A stretch of DNA of 64,000 nt, from assembly GCA_009773165.1 (NCBI GenBank), contig WOUZ01000013.1, forward strand, positions 1-64,000, read 5' to 3'. The position numbers and the translations under genes are program-made. Numbering within the stretch: the stretch's first letter is position 1; every line of letters starts with the position of its first letter. This DNA comes from Bacteroidota bacterium. GTDB taxonomy: Bacteria; Bacteroidota; Bacteroidia; Bacteroidales; F082. This document shows positions 48,280 through 63,119 of this stretch, one piece after another. The notes under the pieces are model-generated. The model did not search any database. It was not told the origin of the DNA and was given only the letters and a program-made list of their open reading frames with translations.

Positions 48280-49452
48280 ATGGCAATAAACAACAACCCG
48301 TCCATTGTAGCCTTTAGTGGTGCTGCCAATGAAATGATTGAAGAAGCACGCAGGCAATTACAGCAAAAGCTTAGTTTGGAAGGCTTTGGTCAAGAGCAGC
48401 AGACCGCCTCTGACTATATCTATTTTATAAGTGGAGGGTCGGAGCAGCAAGCAATCCGGCTTTTGAAACACGGCACACTGAATCTTTTAGTAGCAGGATC
48501 GGGTAATAACGCCTGGGCTGCCGCAACCGAGGTAAAAGCTTATGCAATGCAACATTCCTTTCAAGCTCAATTGATTGCTGTTTATGCAGATGATTTTGCT
48601 GAGCAGCTGCGTCAGTGGTTAAGTGTGAAAAGAGCGTTTGATAATTTAAGTGGTCAACGCGTGGGATTGATAGGAAAGGTTTCAGAATGGCTGGTAGCAT
48701 CTGCTCCTGAGTCATCACTTTTACGACAACGTTTTGGTATCGAGTTGGTAGAACTGGATTATGATGCCTTGCCGGATTATTTAGCATGCGAAGCCGATCT
48801 GCAGTTTAGCGAGGCATTTCCAAAGAACACTATACAACCGGATGCCCTTGCTTCTATCAGCGGGTTTTTAAAACAGACATTGAAAACCTATAAGCTGGAT
48901 GCGCTAACATTGCAATGTTTCAGAATGGTAAAGGAACGAGGTGTCACTGCTTGCCTTCCTGTTGCTTTGATGAATTACAATGGAGTTCCTGCGGGTTGTG
49001 AAGGCGATCTTGTAAGTATTGCAGGTATCATGTTTCTAAAAGCACTTACCGGACACATTGCATGGATGGCCAATATGGTGAAGGTTGACAAAGATCGTAT
49101 CCTGTTGGCACATTGTACTGCACCTCTTCAATATGCTGCCAGTCATACCATTACAAGTCATTATGAAACAGATATTTCAGCTGCACTTCAGGCTGAACTT
49201 TCATTTGAGACAGTAACCATTTTGCGCATGAATGAGCAGATGAACACAGCATTTCTGGCAATCGGTGAAGTGATACAACGGCCAAACAACAGAGATGCCT
49301 GCCGCACCCAGATAGAGGTAAGCATTTCGGAGGGCAGTAGCAAACATCTTATCAACAACCCACTGGGTAATCATCATTTGGTACTTCCCGGTGATTTTTA
49401 TGACATAATCCAAAAAGCATTGCAATCCAAGGGAATTGAAATCCTTTCATAA
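48280..49452 (+). CDS. L-fucose/arabinose isomerase-like protein
   Basis: The 390-residue protein resembles the L-fucose isomerase/L-arabinose isomerase superfamily in its C-terminal domain. Visible are GQRVGLIGKVSEWLVAS (about 125-141), LQCFRMVKERGVTACLPVAL, GVPAGCEGDLVSIAGIMFLKALTG and HCTAPLQYA, in the order seen in this fold. The metal ligands (Glu/Asp/His) cannot be pinned without alignment. It is shorter than FucI (about 590 residues), as in the short, archaeal-like branch. It could act on the sugar handled by the FucP/kinase region, though it lies 31 kb away. A sugar isomerase is probable; the substrate is open. Confidence 0.72.
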   Translation: MAINNNPSIVAFSGAANEMIEEARRQLQQKLSLEGFGQEQQTASDYIYFISGGSEQQAIRLLKHGTLNLLVAGSGNNAWAAATEVKAYAMQHSFQAQLIAVYADDFAEQLRQWLSVKRAFDNLSGQRVGLIGKVSEWLVASAPESSLLRQRFGIELVELDYDALPDYLACEADLQFSEAFPKNTIQPDALASISGFLKQTLKTYKLDALTLQCFRMVKERGVTACLPVALMNYNGVPAGCEGDLVSIAGIMFLKALTGHIAWMANMVKVDKDRILLAHCTAPLQYAASHTITSHYETDISAALQAELSFETVTILRMNEQMNTAFLAIGEVIQRPNNRDACRTQIEVSISEGSSKHLINNPLGNHHLVLPGDFYDIIQKALQSKGIEILS

Positions 49453-49632
49453 AATTGAAATTTGCCCGGATGAGGGTTGCTATTTTATAAGAATCAGGTA
49501 AAACAAATAAGCTGACCTGCTGACGTTTTTTATTTGTTTTCGAGCATTCCGGAACGGTATAATTTTTTTTATCAGAGAATTCGAAAAGGCATTTTTGTAC
49601 GTATATTTATCGGATCAAAAAATCACTGTTCT

Positions 49633-51498
49633 ATGAGTATCACTATCAACCGCAAACCTGTTCGCTTCTACAGCGATCCAAAAAGAGTAATTGTAAGGTT
49701 TTTCTATCCCGGACCAGAAACACGTGTTATCTCAATCATCCAAAAGGTACGAGATATGCCGGAAGAGGCTGCACGTATGAGTTTGAACCAAACGTTGCGT
49801 GATTTTTCGGGACGACACCGTAACATTTCCCGCATTTTTCAGCGGCATTTTGAAAGGGTGAATGAAATCCTTAATGGAAGAGCCAGCGATTTGAGGCTGT
49901 TAAGTCAACACAAACAACTGCTTGTTGGGGCTTATTTTACATCGGAATATTCCATTGAATCAGCAGCGTTTTTCAATCCATCGATGGTTGAAGATCCCGA
50001 TCAGACAGGGTTGACAGAAGGTCAAAAGCGCGTCATTATTAGTTTCAGGGCAACGGGCGAAGGTCATATTTCATCCATTGTTTTCAGAGGAGGCGTTTTG
50101 GATGCCAACAACAACCTGGAGTTAATAGCTACAGGAAGATTGATTGATGAAGCTGAAGCAGTTAAGAATTATATTTACCAGAAGGAAGCTTTCTGTGCAA
50201 AATTGTCCGAGATGCACGCCGACGATCCTGTTGTAAAACATACCATGGACAAACTACGCTTTGAGTTTGATTACAATGAGTTGCTCCGTGCCATAGACGA
50301 ATCAAAAAGGGAGTTGAGTTTGGATGATGCACAACGCAAAATGCTGCAGACTATTAGTTGGCTGGGAGATTCGCACTACGAAATTACCTTTTCGTTAGAC
50401 ACGGGGATCTCCGACAGAGTTGTTTTTCCAATAGCAGCTGCCGAGAGTAATGGTATTGAAGATGCGCGCTTTGTAAAGTTTACTGATGATGATGGTCGTG
50501 TTAGGTATTATGCCACATATACTGCTTACAATGGCTTCAGTATCATGCCTAAGCTGATAGAAACGAAGGATTTTTATAATTTTAAGATTATGCCCATACA
50601 TGGGGATAATGCTCAAAATAAAGGGATGGCAATCTTTCCTCGAAAGATAAAAGGAAAGTATGCCATGCTCGCCCGTATTGATGGCATCAACAATTACATC
50701 ATGTTTTCAGATGTTATCAACCGTTGGGATGAAACACGTATTTTGCAGATACCACAGTATCCCTGGGAGTTCATTCAGGTTGGTAATTGCGGTTCACCCA
50801 TCGAGACAGAGCATGGCTGGCTGGTAATCACTCATGGTGTTGGAACAATGCGTAAATATGTGATAAGCGCTATGCTTCTCGATCTCGATGATCCTACAAA
50901 GGTTATCGGTCAACTTACTGAACCTATTATCTCTCCAAATGAAGAAGAGCGCGAAGGCTATGTTCCTAACGTCGTTTACTCATGTGGTTCTATATTGAAC
51001 AACAACGAATTGGTGATACCTTATGCAATGTCTGACACGGCTTCAACTTTTGCAACTGTTCCACTCGATGAGCTGTTGCGAAGTCTGGTACCATCCGATT
51101 TCAACAAAAAGCACACGCAGGAGGAATTATCAAAAGGTCGTGTTTTAGTTGTTGAAGATGAGGTAATTAATCAGAAAGTGATTGCTGGAATCTTAAAATC
51201 TGAAGGTTATGAAGTTGAGGTAGCCCCTGATGGTATTATCGCCCTGATGAAGATCGCAAAAGGTAATTTTGATGTGATTCTTTCCGATATCGCTATGCCA
51301 AATTTTGATGGCTATCAGATGTTGGAATATCTTAAGGAGAATTCGATCGAAATCCCTGTTATCTTCCTTTCGGGTCATACAAGTCCGGAAGATGAAGCAA
51401 AAGGATTGCGTTTGGGAGCTGCCGATTACATCCGCAAGCCGATCGAAAGAAATCTGCTGTTAGCTCGCCTAAACAAATTGTTTGAAAGGGAAGGTTAG
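49633..51498 (+). CDS. GH130-like glycosidase fused to response-regulator receiver
   Basis: The product has 621 residues from the ATG at 49633; the frame extends 33 codons upstream without good sequence. Residues 1-100 are an extension of unknown fold. Residues 100-490 form a five-bladed propeller of the GH130 type, with the GIEDARFVKF motif (EDAR at 276-279), YNGFSIMPKL and NCGSPIETEHGWLVITHGVG (385-404). Residues 502-621 are a complete receiver domain: E508/D509, phosphoacceptor D552, S580 and K602. GH130 enzymes phosphorolyse or hydrolyse mannosides. I infer that phosphorylation controls the enzyme. The gene is tail-to-tail with the GT4 fusion, with a 4-base overlap. Confidence 0.82.
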   Translation: MSITINRKPVRFYSDPKRVIVRFFYPGPETRVISIIQKVRDMPEEAARMSLNQTLRDFSGRHRNISRIFQRHFERVNEILNGRASDLRLLSQHKQLLVGAYFTSEYSIESAAFFNPSMVEDPDQTGLTEGQKRVIISFRATGEGHISSIVFRGGVLDANNNLELIATGRLIDEAEAVKNYIYQKEAFCAKLSEMHADDPVVKHTMDKLRFEFDYNELLRAIDESKRELSLDDAQRKMLQTISWLGDSHYEITFSLDTGISDRVVFPIAAAESNGIEDARFVKFTDDDGRVRYYATYTAYNGFSIMPKLIETKDFYNFKIMPIHGDNAQNKGMAIFPRKIKGKYAMLARIDGINNYIMFSDVINRWDETRILQIPQYPWEFIQVGNCGSPIETEHGWLVITHGVGTMRKYVISAMLLDLDDPTKVIGQLTEPIISPNEEEREGYVPNVVYSCGSILNNNELVIPYAMSDTASTFATVPLDELLRSLVPSDFNKKHTQEELSKGRVLVVEDEVINQKVIAGILKSEGYEVEVAPDGIIALMKIAKGNFDVILSDIAMPNFDGYQMLEYLKENSIEIPVIFLSGHTSPEDEAKGLRLGAADYIRKPIERNLLLARLNKLFEREG

Positions 51499-53696
51499 CT
51501 CGTGTAGGGCTGGGCGATCAGCTGTGCCATCAACCATGCGATGGTACTTTCTGCACCCTGATTTCTGTTGATGCAATTGTTTTCGATTCCATCATTGCAG
51601 CCTTTTGTTTCACGATCGTAAAGACTGATATTGAGGTCGTTTTCGCCAAGAAACCAGTCATAACATTGCATCAGTTTCAAAGAATGGCTCTGGTTGCTGG
51701 TAGCGATTAATGCGCTTTTGTACATCATCATCATAGCCATAGCATCGATTGGCTGCTGTGCATATAATTCGTATTCTGTATCGAAGCGCAACCACCTTTT
51801 GTTTCCGATAAGGGATAACCAATTGTTTTTGAAACACTTACTCTCAAGGAAAATCCTACTTTTTTCGGCTACCTCCAGGTATTTTTCGTTTCCTGTTACG
51901 CTGTAAGCAACATATAAGGCAGCGGGAATGAGTCCGTTATCGTAAGTAAGCGCATCTTCAAACCAGTGCCAATTTTCACGTTTGTGACGTTCATAACGCT
52001 GACAAAGGGTTTCGGCCACCTGATTGATCATCCCAAGAAACTTCTCCTGATCGGGAAAGCGCTTGCTATAATGAAAGAGTCCGAACATGAAATTAGCATA
52101 ACCTCTGGCATAATTCAGCTTTTCCATAGCAGGAATCATGGAATGAAAAGTTTCCATCGCTGTTTGAAAAAGGGCATCATTTGGTGCATAGCGTATAAGG
52201 TATCCCAAAGCCCAGACAGCCCTTCCATAAGCATCATCAGAGAAATCATTATCAAACATTTGGCGGTCATATGACAGGTAGTTTTTAACCTGACCGTTTT
52301 TCTGCACCATTAACTTGAGGAATGATAAATACTTGGTGAGCAAGCCAAGGTAAACTTCTTTGGCTTCATGTTTATAGGCTGTAATGACTACAAGTATAGC
52401 GCGTGTGTTGTCGTCGAGGCTATAGCCGTGTTGATAGCTTGGGAGAATACCAGTGGCGTGTTGCAACAATCCTGTATCATCAGTAAGTCGTTGAAGGTGT
52501 GTGATATCAAAGTCGGGATATGATTTAGTTGAATGTAGTATCCTGTCCTTTTCTGACACTACTTTATCAAAAAGGTTCAGGTACTGTTTTCCAATCTGTG
52601 GCCAAGCAAGGGTTTTTCCATAATCCAGCGCACGTTGCTGACGCAGTTCCAATTCATCGGGATGATCGAGGGCATGACAGATTGATGATGCCAGTTGCTT
52701 ATGATTACAAAAATCAAAGAGCCATCCGCGTTCTTCGGCTAATAATGATTCAGCATGCCAGTAAGGTGTTGAGAACACGGCGCAGCCGCCGCTCACAGCG
52801 TAGCATAATGTGCCGCTGGTGATTTGTGCTTTATTCAGATACGGAGTCACGTAAATATCGGCTGCTTTAAGCAATGACATTAGTTCAAACTCGCTGACAT
52901 ATTGATTCATAAATACCACATGCTGTTCCAGTTTAAGCTGAATAACCAGGTTTTGAAGGTACTCACGGTATTCTTCGCCGGCATGCCGCAACACATGAGG
53001 GTGGGTTTTCCCCAGAACCACATAAAGCACTTCGGGATGGATGGAAACGATGGATGGCAGCGCCCTGATAACTGTTTCAATACCTTTGCTTCGGCCAATC
53101 AGCCCAAAAGTTATCATCACTTTTCGGTCATTCCAAATGGGAGGAGGAGGTTGTAGCTCATCTTCCATTGCATCAAAATCCGGAGTGCCATGTTCGATAA
53201 GAGCTATTTTCTCTAAAGGAATGTTATATACATTTTGTAAAAAGTCAATAGCTATTTTATTCATGATCACCACTTTGGACGCGTATTGACCTAAGCGTTC
53301 AAGTACTTCCAATTGGTGAAAACCTGGTTTTTCTAAAACAGTATGAAAGGTACAAACGATAGGGATGGTGACTTTGCGAAGCATCGAAAGCAGATAAAGT
53401 CCGCTATCACCCCCAAAAATGCCATATTCATGCTGAACCAGCAGGATATCAGCTCCTGAATCGTTGATTGTTGAAGCCATCCTGATGTAAGCAGCCTGAT
53501 CCTGATCGGGCAGGCTGTGCTTAACAATTGAAGGATAATCGAAGGTGTTCCCCAAATCGTTCATAGCAATCACTTCGATATCAACCGATCGATCGCACAG
53601 TTGAGCTGCAGTGAGGATTGCTCTTACGAGATTTTCGGTAAATGTTGCAATACCACATTGCCGGGGTGGGTAGTTTCCAATACAGATTACTTTCAT
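51495..53696 (-). CDS. GT4 glycosyltransferase with helical glycosidase-like domain
   Basis: The 733-residue protein has a GT4 (GT-B fold) glycosyltransferase (about 1-385) with GNYPPRQCGIATFTENL at the start, the LVQHEYGIFGG and FHTV blocks, GLIGRSKGIETVIRALP and the donor-binding PYLNKAQITSGTLCYAVSGG with WHAESLLAEERGW. Residues about 400-733 form a six-hairpin helical domain as in glycosidases and unsaturated-glycan hydrolases (DNTRAILVVITAYK, DDAYGRAVWALGYL, EDALTYDNGLIPAALYVAY, INRNQGAESTIAWLMAQL). The fusion may both build and trim a glycan. It faces the GH130-receiver gene. Confidence 0.85.
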   Translation of the reverse strand: MKVICIGNYPPRQCGIATFTENLVRAILTAAQLCDRSVDIEVIAMNDLGNTFDYPSIVKHSLPDQDQAAYIRMASTINDSGADILLVQHEYGIFGGDSGLYLLSMLRKVTIPIVCTFHTVLEKPGFHQLEVLERLGQYASKVVIMNKIAIDFLQNVYNIPLEKIALIEHGTPDFDAMEDELQPPPPIWNDRKVMITFGLIGRSKGIETVIRALPSIVSIHPEVLYVVLGKTHPHVLRHAGEEYREYLQNLVIQLKLEQHVVFMNQYVSEFELMSLLKAADIYVTPYLNKAQITSGTLCYAVSGGCAVFSTPYWHAESLLAEERGWLFDFCNHKQLASSICHALDHPDELELRQQRALDYGKTLAWPQIGKQYLNLFDKVVSEKDRILHSTKSYPDFDITHLQRLTDDTGLLQHATGILPSYQHGYSLDDNTRAILVVITAYKHEAKEVYLGLLTKYLSFLKLMVQKNGQVKNYLSYDRQMFDNDFSDDAYGRAVWALGYLIRYAPNDALFQTAMETFHSMIPAMEKLNYARGYANFMFGLFHYSKRFPDQEKFLGMINQVAETLCQRYERHKRENWHWFEDALTYDNGLIPAALYVAYSVTGNEKYLEVAEKSRIFLESKCFKNNWLSLIGNKRWLRFDTEYELYAQQPIDAMAMMMMYKSALIATSNQSHSLKLMQCYDWFLGENDLNISLYDRETKGCNDGIENNCINRNQGAESTIAWLMAQLIAQPYTS

Positions 53697-57323: not shown

Positions 57324-59237
57324 CTATTTAATGCGCATCAGAAGCGAAACTTCACTTGGAGTCAAATGACGGTATTTACCCCTTGGCAAATCGAGCTTTG
57401 TCAGTCCGGCAATCATCACCCTGTCGAGTTTTACAACATTATAGCCCAATTGTTCAAAGATGCGGCGGACAATTCTGTTCTTACCTGAATGAATCTCAAT
57501 ACCAACTTCTTTCTTCGATTCATCTTTGCTGACGTAAGAAATGGCATCAATCTCAGCTTTACCGTCTTCCAGTTCAAGACCATCGGCAATGAGAAGCATA
57601 TCATGTTTTGTAATCGGCTTATCAAGCTCTACATGGTAAAGTTTCTTTACTCCATGACGCGGGTGCATCAGCCGTTTGGCCAAATCACCATCGTTGGTAA
57701 GTATTAACAGACCAAGGGTATTTCTGTCAAGTCGACCTACAGGATAAATGCGTTCGTCGCAGGCACTCTGTACAAGTTCCATAACTGTTTTACGGTCAAA
57801 TGGATCGTCGGAGGTGGTGATATAACCTTTTGGTTTATTGAGAAGTACATAACGCAATTTTTCGCGGCGTAATGTTTGTCCTCCATAATTCACCTTGTCA
57901 TTGATGCTGACTTTTGTGCCGAGTTCAGTAACGATGGTGCCATTAACGGTAACAGTTCCTGCCTGAATCAGCACATCTGCTTCACGACGGGAGCAAATAC
58001 CGGCATCAGCAAGGTATTTATTCAGACGGATAAAATCTTTCTTTTCCGGCATCCGTCCGGGGATTTGTTCTTTTTGCTCAAAGCGGCTTAGTCGCGCTGG
58101 CTTATGTTCGCGCGGATCATTGGAATCACGTCTTCCATATGACTTGCGTTCACGAGGAGCGTCGTTGTCACGGCTTCCGAAAGGTTTGCGTTCGCGCGGA
58201 GCATCATTGTCGCGGCTTCCGAAAGGTTTGCGTTCGCGCGGAGCGTCATTGTCACGACTTCCGAAAGGTTTACGTTCGCGCGGAGCGTCGTTGTCACGGC
58301 TTCCGAAAGGTTTGCGTTCGCGCGGAGTGTCGTTGTCACGGCTTCCGAAAGGTTTGCTTTCGCGCGGAGTGTCGTTGTCGCGGCTTCCGAAAGGTTTGCG
58401 TTCGCGCGGAGCATCGTTGTCGCGGCTTCCGAAAGGTTTGCGTTCGCGCGGAGCTTCGTTGTCGCGGCTTCCAAAAGGTTTCCGTTCACGCGGAGCGTCG
58501 TTGTCCTGATTTCCGTAAGGTTTACGTTCGCGCGGAGCATCGTTGTCGCGGCTTGCGAAAGGCTTGCGTTCGCGCGGAGCATCATTGTCACGACTTGCGT
58601 ATGGCTTGCGTTCACGTGGTGCATCGTTGTCACGGCTTGCGTATGGCTTGCGTTCGCGCGGAGCATCGTTGTCACGGCTTGCGTAAGGCTTGCGTTCACG
58701 TGGTGCATCATTGTCACGGCTTGCGTATGGTTTGCGTTCGCGTGGAGCATCGTTGTCCCGACTTGCATAAGGTTTACGTTCGCGCGGAGCATCGGTGTCC
58801 CGACTTGCGTATGGTTTGCGTTCGCGCGGAGCATCATTTTCGCGGCTTGCATAAGGTTTGCGTTCGCGTGGAGCATCGTTGTCACGGCTTCCGTAAGGCT
58901 TGCGTTCGCGAGGAGCATCGTTGTCACGGCTTGCATATGGTTTACGATCTCTCGGAGCATCATTGTCACGGCTTGCGTAAGGCTTGCGTTCGCGCGGAGC
59001 ATCGTTGTCACGGCTTGCGTATGGCTTGCGTTCACGAGGAGCATCGTTGTCACGGCTAGCGTAAGGCTTGCGTTCGCGCGGAGCGTCGTTATCACGACTT
59101 CCGTATGATTTTTTCCCGGCACCGGGTTTTGATCCTTGTGACCTGCCTATTGAGGGAGGTCTTCTGCTTGTATCTTTTTGTTCTGATGGAATTCGTTTGC
59201 GGGGCGGGCGCTTGCCATTTGGCTCTTTTTCGCTCAT
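57324..59237 (-). CDS. RluB-like pseudouridine synthase with repeat tail
   Basis: The 637-residue protein starts at ATG 59237 (MSEKEPNGKRPPRK). Residues 47-382 are 24 copies of a 14-residue repeat, consensus SRDNDAPRERKPYA, followed by an S4 RNA-binding domain (about 402-465) and an RsuA/RluB-type pseudouridine synthase with the catalytic aspartate D504 in GRLDRNT. The enzyme modifies 23S or 16S rRNA. The charged, disordered repeat (Arg, Asp, Glu, Lys) likely binds RNA or ribosomes. Normal members have about 240-300 residues plus, in Bacteroidota, a variable charged tail; this one is extreme. The long open frames on the other strand over the repeats are artefacts. Confidence 0.9.
   Translation of the reverse strand: MSEKEPNGKRPPRKRIPSEQKDTSRRPPSIGRSQGSKPGAGKKSYGSRDNDAPRERKPYASRDNDAPRERKPYASRDNDAPRERKPYASRDNDAPRDRKPYASRDNDAPRERKPYGSRDNDAPRERKPYASRENDAPRERKPYASRDTDAPRERKPYASRDNDAPRERKPYASRDNDAPRERKPYASRDNDAPRERKPYASRDNDAPRERKPYASRDNDAPRERKPFASRDNDAPRERKPYGNQDNDAPRERKPFGSRDNEAPRERKPFGSRDNDAPRERKPFGSRDNDTPRESKPFGSRDNDTPRERKPFGSRDNDAPRERKPFGSRDNDAPRERKPFGSRDNDAPRERKPFGSRDNDAPRERKSYGRRDSNDPREHKPARLSRFEQKEQIPGRMPEKKDFIRLNKYLADAGICSRREADVLIQAGTVTVNGTIVTELGTKVSINDKVNYGGQTLRREKLRYVLLNKPKGYITTSDDPFDRKTVMELVQSACDERIYPVGRLDRNTLGLLILTNDGDLAKRLMHPRHGVKKLYHVELDKPITKHDMLLIADGLELEDGKAEIDAISYVSKDESKKEVGIEIHSGKNRIVRRIFEQLGYNVVKLDRVMIAGLTKLDLPRGKYRHLTPSEVSLLMRIK
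58092..59099 (-). repeat. 24-copy 42-base coding minisatellite
   Basis: The unit is 42 bases (14 codons) repeated without interruption. Two types occur: copies 1-14 (gene 5' side) mostly end in KPYA and copies 15-22 in KPFG, with the changeover at copies 13-15. The last copy is degenerate. It is likely to vary in number between strains. Confidence 0.95.
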
Positions 59238-59550
59238 TGTCAATGAAATTGGGCGGCAAAGATAGCGCTAATTATCGGATTGGCAACTTATCAATACCAC
59301 TAAGTTTTGAAATAGGTTGTAGAACAAGTTGTTAAAGAATTGTTTATGACTTCAATTTCATAAATACTAAACTAAAGCTTGATTTTCTGAAATAATTAAA
59401 ACCTGTATAAATGCAGCAAGAGTTATGGTGATTTATTGAATTAGATACCAATCAGGCAATAACACTTAAAGATAATTACATATTGATTCAAAAATTAGGC
59501 TTGCTTTTTGGTCATGAATCTATTATTTTTATACATCCAAATGCTGATTT
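59238..59550. other. Intergenic gap with divergent start regions
   Basis: The gap separates the divergent rluB-like and usp genes. It contains the rluB-like promoter at 59257-59286. For usp I see no clear -7 element. No gene or hairpin is apparent. Confidence 0.55.
59257..59286 (-). promoter_or_regulatory. Promoter of the RluB-like gene
   Basis: The minus strand has TTG (59286-59284), 19 bases, TATCTTTG (59264-59257). The leader is about 15 bases. Confidence 0.75.
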
Positions 59551-61940: not shown

Positions 61941-63119
61941 TCAGGCTTTTGGAAGGGTAAGAGTGAACGTACTTCCTTTGCCTTCTTCACTTTCAACACC
62001 CAGACTTCCATTCATGCGTTGAGTCATATCAAAGCTTAAAACCAGACCAAGACCGGTGCTTTGCTCACCTTCGGTTCCCGGTCGGGAAACTTTTTCGTTT
62101 ATGCGGAAGAGTTTGTTTTGCAGAGCTTTATTCATGCCAATTCCTGAATCTTTCACCGAAACAGCAATTTCATGGGCGGTTTCTTCAACTTGAATAACAA
62201 CTTTGCCACCGGCAGGAGTAAATTTAATGGCGTTGGAAATTAAGTTACGCAAAACCATATCCACCATACCTTGATCTGCTTTCGCTTTAGCCGGGCTGCC
62301 TATTTTTTGAGTGATGGTGATGTCTTTTTTCATGACTACACTTTTCTGTAGCTCAACAGCATTTGAGATAGCTATGGATAGGTCGACAGGCTGCAATTTT
62401 GTTTTGAGAGTCCCCATTTGAAGCTGAGCCCAATTAAGCAGGTTTTCAAGAAGTTTATTCATATTAGTGGCAGCATCATGAAGGGCAGCGATAAACGCAG
62501 ATATTTCCTCAGGGCTCAGTTCATTGAAGCGTGTAAACAATAGTTCTGTTGCCATCAGGCATCCATTGAAAGGATTACGCAAATCGTGCGAGATGATTGA
62601 GAAGAACCGGTCTTTTTCGGCGTTTAGTTTAGCAAGTTTCTCAGCATCTTTTTTAATAATCTCTTTTGATTCAGTTAGTTCCTGATTGAGTTTGAGAAGG
62701 GCATTGTTGTTTTCGGAAAGCTGATTTCGCATCCTTTTCAGTTCAATATGTGTTTCAACACGTGCCAAAAGCTCTTCACTTTTGAAAGGTTTGGTTATAT
62801 AGTCCACAGCACCCATTGCAAAGCCTTTGACAATATCCGAAAGTTCGGATTTTGCCGTAAGGAAAATTACCGGAAGATCAACAATATCAGGATTTTTCTT
62901 GATTGTTTCGAGCACTTCATATCCACTCAATCCGGGCATCATAATATCGAGCAGTAAAAGATCCGGCTGTTTGATACCAAGATATTTGAGGGCATTTTCT
63001 CCGGAGTTGGCCACAACAACTTTATATCCTTTTCCAGAAAGCAAGCTGGAAATTAACTGAAGGTTTCTGGGATTATCATCCACGGCCAGAATGGTAGGAG
63101 TAATTTCCATAATTTTCAT
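61941..63119 (-). CDS. Receiver-histidine kinase hybrid
   Basis: The 392-residue protein has an N-terminal receiver domain (about 9-125; acidic D14/D15, phosphoacceptor D58, K110), a coiled coil (about 128-170), a HisKA domain with H178 in SIISHDLRNPF and an ATPase domain (NAIKF, DSGIGM, GLGLVLSF). There is no membrane segment, so it acts in the cytoplasm. It lies 16 bases after the truncated hybrid kinase on the same strand, which suggests a phosphorelay pair. Confidence 0.92.
   Translation of the reverse strand: MKIMEITPTILAVDDNPRNLQLISSLLSGKGYKVVVANSGENALKYLGIKQPDLLLLDIMMPGLSGYEVLETIKKNPDIVDLPVIFLTAKSELSDIVKGFAMGAVDYITKPFKSEELLARVETHIELKRMRNQLSENNNALLKLNQELTESKEIIKKDAEKLAKLNAEKDRFFSIISHDLRNPFNGCLMATELLFTRFNELSPEEISAFIAALHDAATNMNKLLENLLNWAQLQMGTLKTKLQPVDLSIAISNAVELQKSVVMKKDITITQKIGSPAKAKADQGMVDMVLRNLISNAIKFTPAGGKVVIQVEETAHEIAVSVKDSGIGMNKALQNKLFRINEKVSRPGTEGEQSTGLGLVLSFDMTQRMNGSLGVESEEGKGSTFTLTLPKA

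Follow-up and report, generated by a model that had tools for sequence, protein, structure and literature searches.

A GH130-type propeller enzyme with a conserved C-terminal receiver domain: a candidate link between phosphorylation and internal glycan turnover

The window, by which we mean the whole 64,000-nucleotide stretch of contig WOUZ01000013.1 analysed here, carries on its forward strand a gene (49633–51498) for a 621-aa protein in which two Pfam domains share one open reading frame. The frame opens at an ATG (49633) and its stop codon finishes at 51498; an in-frame TTG also lies further up, at 49534, but M1 is nearly invariant in alignments of relatives. A propeller region matching Glyco_hydro_130 (PF04041; aa 261–483, 50413–51081; E 5.4e-29, 101.6 bits vs a gathering score of 26), also recognised by its fold and by profile matches to solved phosphorylases, is followed by a Response_reg receiver (PF00072; aa 504–613, 51142–51471; E 1.1e-27, over its gathering score) whose phospho-acceptor is D552 (51286–51288). 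The initial annotation had proposed this arrangement, a GH130-like propeller with an EDAR motif at aa 276–279 (50458–50469) and, directly after it, a complete CheY-like receiver (E508/D509, D552, S580, K602), and had suggested a domain search: Pfam, motif position and Foldseek fold agree on the propeller, both domains exceed their gathering scores, and the receiver residues lie where they had been placed.

Ahead of the Glyco_hydro_130 match, aa 1–260 (49633–50412, forward strand) matched no Pfam family at E 1; AlphaFold2 secondary structure and invariant columns delimit in it an N-terminal helical part, a first propeller blade (N115, R139) and a helical insert. Residues 1 to ~245, on which the initial annotation is silent, are part of a distinct "long" GH130 form, with N-terminal helices and an insert (~aa 184–245) that stands before the EDAR blade and interrupts the beta-propeller of the AlphaFold2 model. 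That model, built from 60 aligned sequences (35 fused, 25 unfused), has a mean pLDDT of 87.1 and consists of the propeller and a (beta-alpha)5 domain, with a loose, poorly defined linker at aa 492–499. Structure prediction, also suggested at the outset, thus yielded both folds and left their interface unsure, since a pTM of just 0.71 makes the relative placing of propeller and receiver uncertain. In Foldseek searches, the propeller best matched the beta-1,2-oligomannan phosphorylase Teth514_1788 (E 3.6e-22, TM-score by target 0.75), and the C-terminal end matched receivers such as PmrA, YycF and PhoB (TM-score by target ~0.93). Inspection by eye revealed no evident signal peptide in aa 1–40.

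A convergent gene on the reverse strand (51495–53696), overlapping the fusion gene by four bases, encodes a 733-aa GT4 glycosyltransferase, assigned by Pfam, AlphaFold2 and Foldseek. In its model (pLDDT 90.5), a GT-B half that Foldseek placed closest to PimA with GDP-Man (E 3.3e-14) is joined to a helical C-terminal half, which gave weak profile matches to C5-epimerase, GH88 and GH127. Upstream on the forward strand lies a gene for a 390-aa protein (48280–49452) that had no Pfam match and weakly resembles the sulfoquinovose isomerase SftI (NCBIfam, 48 bits vs a cut-off of 700). A homologue precedes the fusion only in some of the closest relatives (L039, L041, L042, L044), so that its product is a possible partner in close relatives only.

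We compared the active site across 40 fused proteins and 74 unfused relatives. N115, R133, R139, H145, E276, D277, R279, K330, R348, N385, H401, R407, Y409 and D468 are identical in all 40 fused and all 74 unfused rows; E276-D277 align with the Glu-Asp motif of beta-1,2 enzymes, D277 (kept in 114/114 rows) with the catalytic Asp of that motif, and K330 with the NKD Lys of Teth514_1788, Teth514_1789, Lin0857 and Uhgb_MS. The GH130 catalytic residues on which the first assignment depended are therefore retained, and we find no support for a dead propeller retained for binding, the checked residues being unchanged in the fused rows. One ligand position departs from this pattern: residue 382 is Gln in 40/40 fused and 70/74 unfused rows and Lys in the other four unfused rows (L086, L088, L090, L098), whereas the column holds K/R (KIG/RVG motif) in five aligned GH130 enzymes, in TM1225 and in the short GH130 of the gene cassette described below (10/10). 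We take this column to be that of a phosphate ligand, Lys212 of UhgbMP. Compared by alignment, the fusion retains R348 among the basic residues of phosphorylases and carries Gln382 at one K/R column, and the assignment of these columns as phosphate ligands agrees with the BT3780 residue spacing. According to Cuskin et al. (PMC4599007), the catalytic Asp of GH130 is D142 in BT3780 and D104 in UhgbMP, the beta-1,2 determinant of BT3780 is K199, and the places of the basic phosphate ligands of phosphorylases are taken in BT3780 by Glu227 and Glu268. Alignment and spacing suggest that K330 corresponds to K199 and R348 to the Glu227 position.

Since Gln382 replaces K/R, phosphate may bind differently or not at all. 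Among the best 25 of 94 matching NCBIfam families, which were mostly receiver families, the top matches were the beta-1,2-mannobiose phosphorylase models NF052550 and NF050092, at 145 and 148 bits against cut-offs of 450 and 550; for the unfused relative L092 the mannobiose phosphorylase models gave 143 and 142 bits and the BT3780 hydrolase model 23. Because these cut-offs were missed and Gln382 is present, we class the protein as GH130 and not as a named phosphorylase. It is a GH130 enzyme, probably of the phosphorylase type and with a putative mannoside substrate, and looks competent but odd. The "mannoside breakdown" of the initial annotation fits the beta-1,2-mannoside phosphorylases that stand closest to it among characterised enzymes, but is weakened by the missed cut-offs (148 vs 550 bits) and by Gln382.

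That the propeller is instead a hydrolase or transferase under receiver control appears unlikely, though it is the alternative we take most seriously. The Gln at 382, where phosphorylases have K/R, points that way in every fused and nearly every unfused row, as does the ability of a GH130-like fold to use sugar nucleotides, the GT108 enzymes of Leishmania being described as transferase-phosphorylases (PMC8950772). Against it, R348 and H401 are retained, Lys382 persists in four of the 74 unfused rows, and the positions of the two BT3780 Glu (PMC4599007) appear, by our matching, to be Arg and Gln in the fusion family.

The fused receiver has the (beta-alpha)5 fold and the five-residue DD/D/T/K set according to alignment, AlphaFold2 and Foldseek; PMC12632262 names DD, D, T and K as the catalytic set of phosphorylatable receivers and adds a Y-T coupling position. 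Among 40 distinct full-length fused proteins, position 508 is E in 31 and D in 9, D509 and D552 are invariant (40/40 each), position 580 is S in 30 and T in 10, and K602 occurs in 39, with R in the remaining one; an aromatic residue at 599 (K-3) and a Pro at D+4 are present in all 40. With DD, D, S/T and K kept across the 40 proteins, the phosphorylation site is intact as originally read, the receiver looks functional by these residues, and a degenerate receiver is ruled out by the complete conserved set. Seven of 11 chosen pairs gave receiver dN/dS values (NG86) of 0.013, 0.058, 0.027, 0.055, 0.087, 0.051 and 0.03, of which some are rough since four of the seven dS values exceed 1.5; the other four pairs gave no dS. 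Judged from these ratios, the receiver is under purifying selection. In the propeller, T469 (codon 51037–51039), beside active-site D468, is found in 93% of the 40 fused rows, whereas unfused rows mostly have Y (55/74); it is possibly a trace of adaptation to the receiver.

We investigated the distribution of the fusion by scanning genome contigs with the GH130 part, which gave 253 confirmed relatives; we retained the 80 best loci, a choice that biases the sample towards close relatives. Half of them (40 of 80) encode an in-frame receiver after GH130, and L056, which stops inside the receiver at a contig end, was grouped with the other 40. One fused locus (L074), on a contig of 590,942 bases, belongs to the isolate Chitinophaga skermanii DSM 23857. 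The GH130 form is present at E 1e-40 in 44 of 100 genomes related to the source genome; of 30 loci examined in this comparison, the window's own included, 22 have the receiver (21 besides the window's own), 7 lack it, and one (L036) has unread bases after the GH130 match. This count and the contig scan share genomes; L010 and L039, for example, have identical tails. A broader sample of the phylum (395 genomes) contains 52 with the GH130 form at E 1e-90; in one, G225 (L119), the match spans the receiver. The fusion is thus common in and around the source family, and elsewhere in the phylum it is rare. The initial annotation had proposed looking for the same fusion in other genomes and had raised assembly error as a concern: its presence in 40/80 loci and 21 relatives' genomes answers the first point, and recurrence in many assemblies, including the isolate Chitinophaga skermanii DSM 23857, rules out an assembly chimera and indicates that the fusion is real. 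Viral contigs contained two relatives of the GH130 part, and 39 plasmid records, including Rhizobium, Sphingobium and related plasmids, matched it at E 1e-40; none of the 39 reached 80% query coverage.

A GH130 tree of 80 parts (35 fused, 45 unfused), computed by a quick method after leaving out 5 near-identical fused and 29 unfused sequences, placed 33 of the 35 fused rows in one clade (SH-aLRT 96). The other two, L080 (Neomarinimicrobiota) and L085 (KSB1), fell among unfused rows. The tree requires three changes of fused/unfused state, so the receiver was lost, gained again or transferred. In a receiver tree (n = 71, 132 columns), all 35 fused receivers formed one exclusive clade (support 87, not starred), a result that the sampling favours, as the collecting HMM was built from fused receivers and the others came mostly from the source genome. 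The simplest reading of both trees would be one receiver gain followed by losses or transfer.

The association with GT4 extends well beyond the window. A convergent GT4 is the next gene in 29/40 fused loci, and a GT4 lies somewhere in 34/40; the GT4-free loci L058, L072 and L073 end less than 600 bases from the fusion, and L061, L064 and L074 do not. Nine of the 40 other loci (L079, L087, L089, L091, L094, L096, L102, L109, L117) hold a cassette of GH130-long, GT4 (336-aa type), GH130-short (309-aa type) and long GT4, and the fused L080 and L085 keep the order of the GT4/GH130 cassette. Such proximity is one reason to consider that the receiver governs location or assembly rather than catalysis, with phosphorylation either recruiting GH130 to a partner, for instance a glycan granule or the GT4 synthase, or altering its oligomeric state. 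Receivers often dimerise when phosphorylated (PMC12632262), and the checked active-site residues are the same in fused and unfused rows, both of which suit this idea; since the GT4 pairing occurs also without a receiver, we think it rather unlikely.

The unfused long GH130 stands behind glgA-glgC in 11 of the 40 other loci, all Chitinophaga (e.g. L092 2251–6470), the glgA-glgC assignment resting on Pfam for L092 and on BLAST to the L092 genes for the other ten. A facing GT4 of the 336-aa type is found at all of these loci but L092, and the glgA-glgC neighbours tie the long GH130 to glycogen-type metabolism. On the Ilyobacter polytropus plasmid pILYOP02, typed as conjugative, GT4 (355 aa), short GH130, long GH130 and long GT4 form a tight operon of four genes (L173 5967–11693), and a Rhizobium daejeonense plasmid has the order GT4, GH130, AGE epimerase. 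In the source genome itself, a second GH130 match adjoins a second long GT4 match (L166 2679–5790, C1:219500–226500), and the 336-aa GT4 type ("GT336") gave no match at 1e-20 in a search run without a positive control. The GH130/GT4 gene group occurs in Bacteroidota, in candidate phyla including Aminicenantes and KSB1, and on plasmids of one Fusobacteriota member and one alphaproteobacterium. Together, GT4, the glgA-glgC neighbours, the plasmid operons and the lack of an evident secretion signal suggest that an internal glycan is turned over; the GT4 and Chitinophaga glgA-glgC neighbours favour this over digestion of an outside mannan and so weaken the "mannoside breakdown" first proposed.

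The same neighbourhoods raise the question of whether the long GH130 form serves glycogen, another glucan or a storage sugar rather than a mannoside. The glgA-glgC-GH130 arrangement in 11 Chitinophaga loci (within the best 80 of 253) argues for this, although that placing of the unfused form is compatible with either glycogen or mannan. K330, which aligns with the Lys of beta-1,2-mannoside enzymes, and the GT4-GH130-AGE epimerase order of the Rhizobium plasmid argue against it, the AGE epimerase family including mannose epimerases; we consider a non-mannoside substrate improbable.

No kinase is encoded in the genes adjoining the fusion in the window, in line with the initial annotation's "no adjacent kinase"; neither neighbour is one. 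Among 12 window proteins scanned with Pfam, the nearest histidine kinase is a 392-aa REC-HisKA-HATPase protein (61941–63119, reverse strand) 10.4 kb away, and we found no evidence linking it to the fusion as a partner. An HMM search of flanks, likely to miss kinases as its model was built on three seeds, found histidine kinases at 3/40 fused loci (L050, L060, L066) vs 4/40 others (L077, L099, L102, L109), hence no enrichment beside the fusion. L060 and L066 have one kinase each within the flank, and at L050 (416–4733) two hybrid histidine kinases of 447 and 980 aa lie directly upstream of the fusion on the same strand. Gene neighbourhood therefore names no general partner kinase, the directly upstream pair occurring only at L050; those two proteins are candidate cognate kinases and the best partner lead. 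That the receiver is a phosphate sink or passive remnant with no effect on GH130 might be read from the few kinase neighbours and the patchy distribution, yet it is highly improbable given the complete receiver active-site set, dN/dS far below 1 and the single clade of fused receivers.

The fusion places a receiver and an enzyme in one chain, both with known active-site residues (Gln382 excepted). Two-component systems are known mostly for the control of transcription, chemotaxis and second messengers. Our preferred reading, which we favour by a modest measure, is that the protein is an orphan response regulator with a cytoplasmic GH130 glycan-turnover output, in which phosphorylated D552 tunes the propeller, likely in beta-mannoside phosphorolysis. 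A kinase encoded elsewhere would phosphorylate D552, directly or via a phosphotransfer protein; the phosphorylated receiver would change shape on its alpha4-beta5-alpha5 side; and this change would turn the propeller's rate up or down, through the linker at aa 492–499 or an altered oligomeric state. The propeller would most likely form or cleave beta-mannosidic bonds, perhaps beta-1,2, through inverting phosphorolysis, and mannose 1-phosphate may be exchanged with an internal oligosaccharide built by the facing GT4 enzyme. The analysis shows the architecture, its conservation and selection, the intact sites and the gene partners; phosphorylation, whether and in which direction activity is controlled, phosphorolysis, the nature of the sugar and the cytoplasmic location are what we infer. 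Among rate, oligomeric state and partner binding, rate control is the simplest proposal. The GH130-receiver chain may thereby tie internal sugar-chain turnover directly to a signalling pathway. The kinase-driven on/off switch proposed in the initial annotation, perhaps run by one of the window's orphan kinases, is likewise plausible given a conserved and intact receiver. More tentatively, and with doubt prevailing, two-component signalling might act directly, by allostery, on the enzyme that draws on (or builds up) an internal beta-mannan reserve supplied by the facing GT4, a bacterial counterpart of kinase-controlled glycogen phosphorylase; if true, storage-sugar flux would be switched post-translationally.

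Several known systems resemble parts of the fusion. The beta-1,2-mannoside phosphorylases (Teth514_1788/Teth514_1789) are its best sequence and fold matches and have in common with it the Glu-Asp motif, the NK(D) Lys and an Arg, with an HG motif in Teth514_1789; unlike the fusion, they are ~300 aa long, have neither the receiver nor the N-terminal helices and the insert, and carry K/R at the Q382 position. In Thermoanaerobacter, the phosphorylase pair is clustered with a GT4 gene (PMC4264767), a link also seen with the fusion. The beta-1,2-mannosidases BT3780 and BACOVA_03624 (3qc2) have the fold, the catalytic Asp and the +1-site Lys in common with the fusion, but in them two Glu replace basic residues (PMC4599007), whereas the fusion keeps R348. 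The Leishmania mannogen enzymes (GT108), in which a GH130-like propeller makes and breaks a beta-1,2-mannan reserve, are a possible functional parallel; they form a separate CAZy family, and the available part of PMC8950772 mentions no receiver, which the fusion carries.

For receivers attached to metabolic enzymes, PMC5847659 describes a trend with narrow distributions, including a REC-BcsA-like glycosyltransferase of Methanobacteriaceae that likewise combines a receiver with a carbohydrate-active enzyme; the fusion differs in its GH130 output, its C-terminal receiver and its occurrence mostly in Bacteroidales-type genomes. Within a library of 5.39 million open-licence papers, no description of a GH130-receiver fusion was found among the titles, abstracts and passages covered (PMC1183210, PMC5847659 and PMC4312070 included), and one paper, PMC5320581, combines the terms GH130 and receiver domain. 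The term "very unusual" applied to the fusion in the initial annotation may stand for GH130, but joining receivers to metabolic enzymes is in itself a known trend.

A conserved receiver joined to a carbohydrate enzyme would let signals shift sugar flux fast, without new protein. Moreover, the fusion offers a testable object in one chain for studying receiver control of a propeller enzyme, and it highlights a GH130/GT4 gene group that is so far uncharacterised.

Elsewhere in the window, we observed a 42-base repeat (22.9 copies, 87% matches) at 58144–59105, within a reverse-strand ORF at 57324–59243. It encodes a 14-residue RDNDAPRERKPYAS-type array ahead of a part that, by eye, resembles an RsuA-type pseudouridine synthase.
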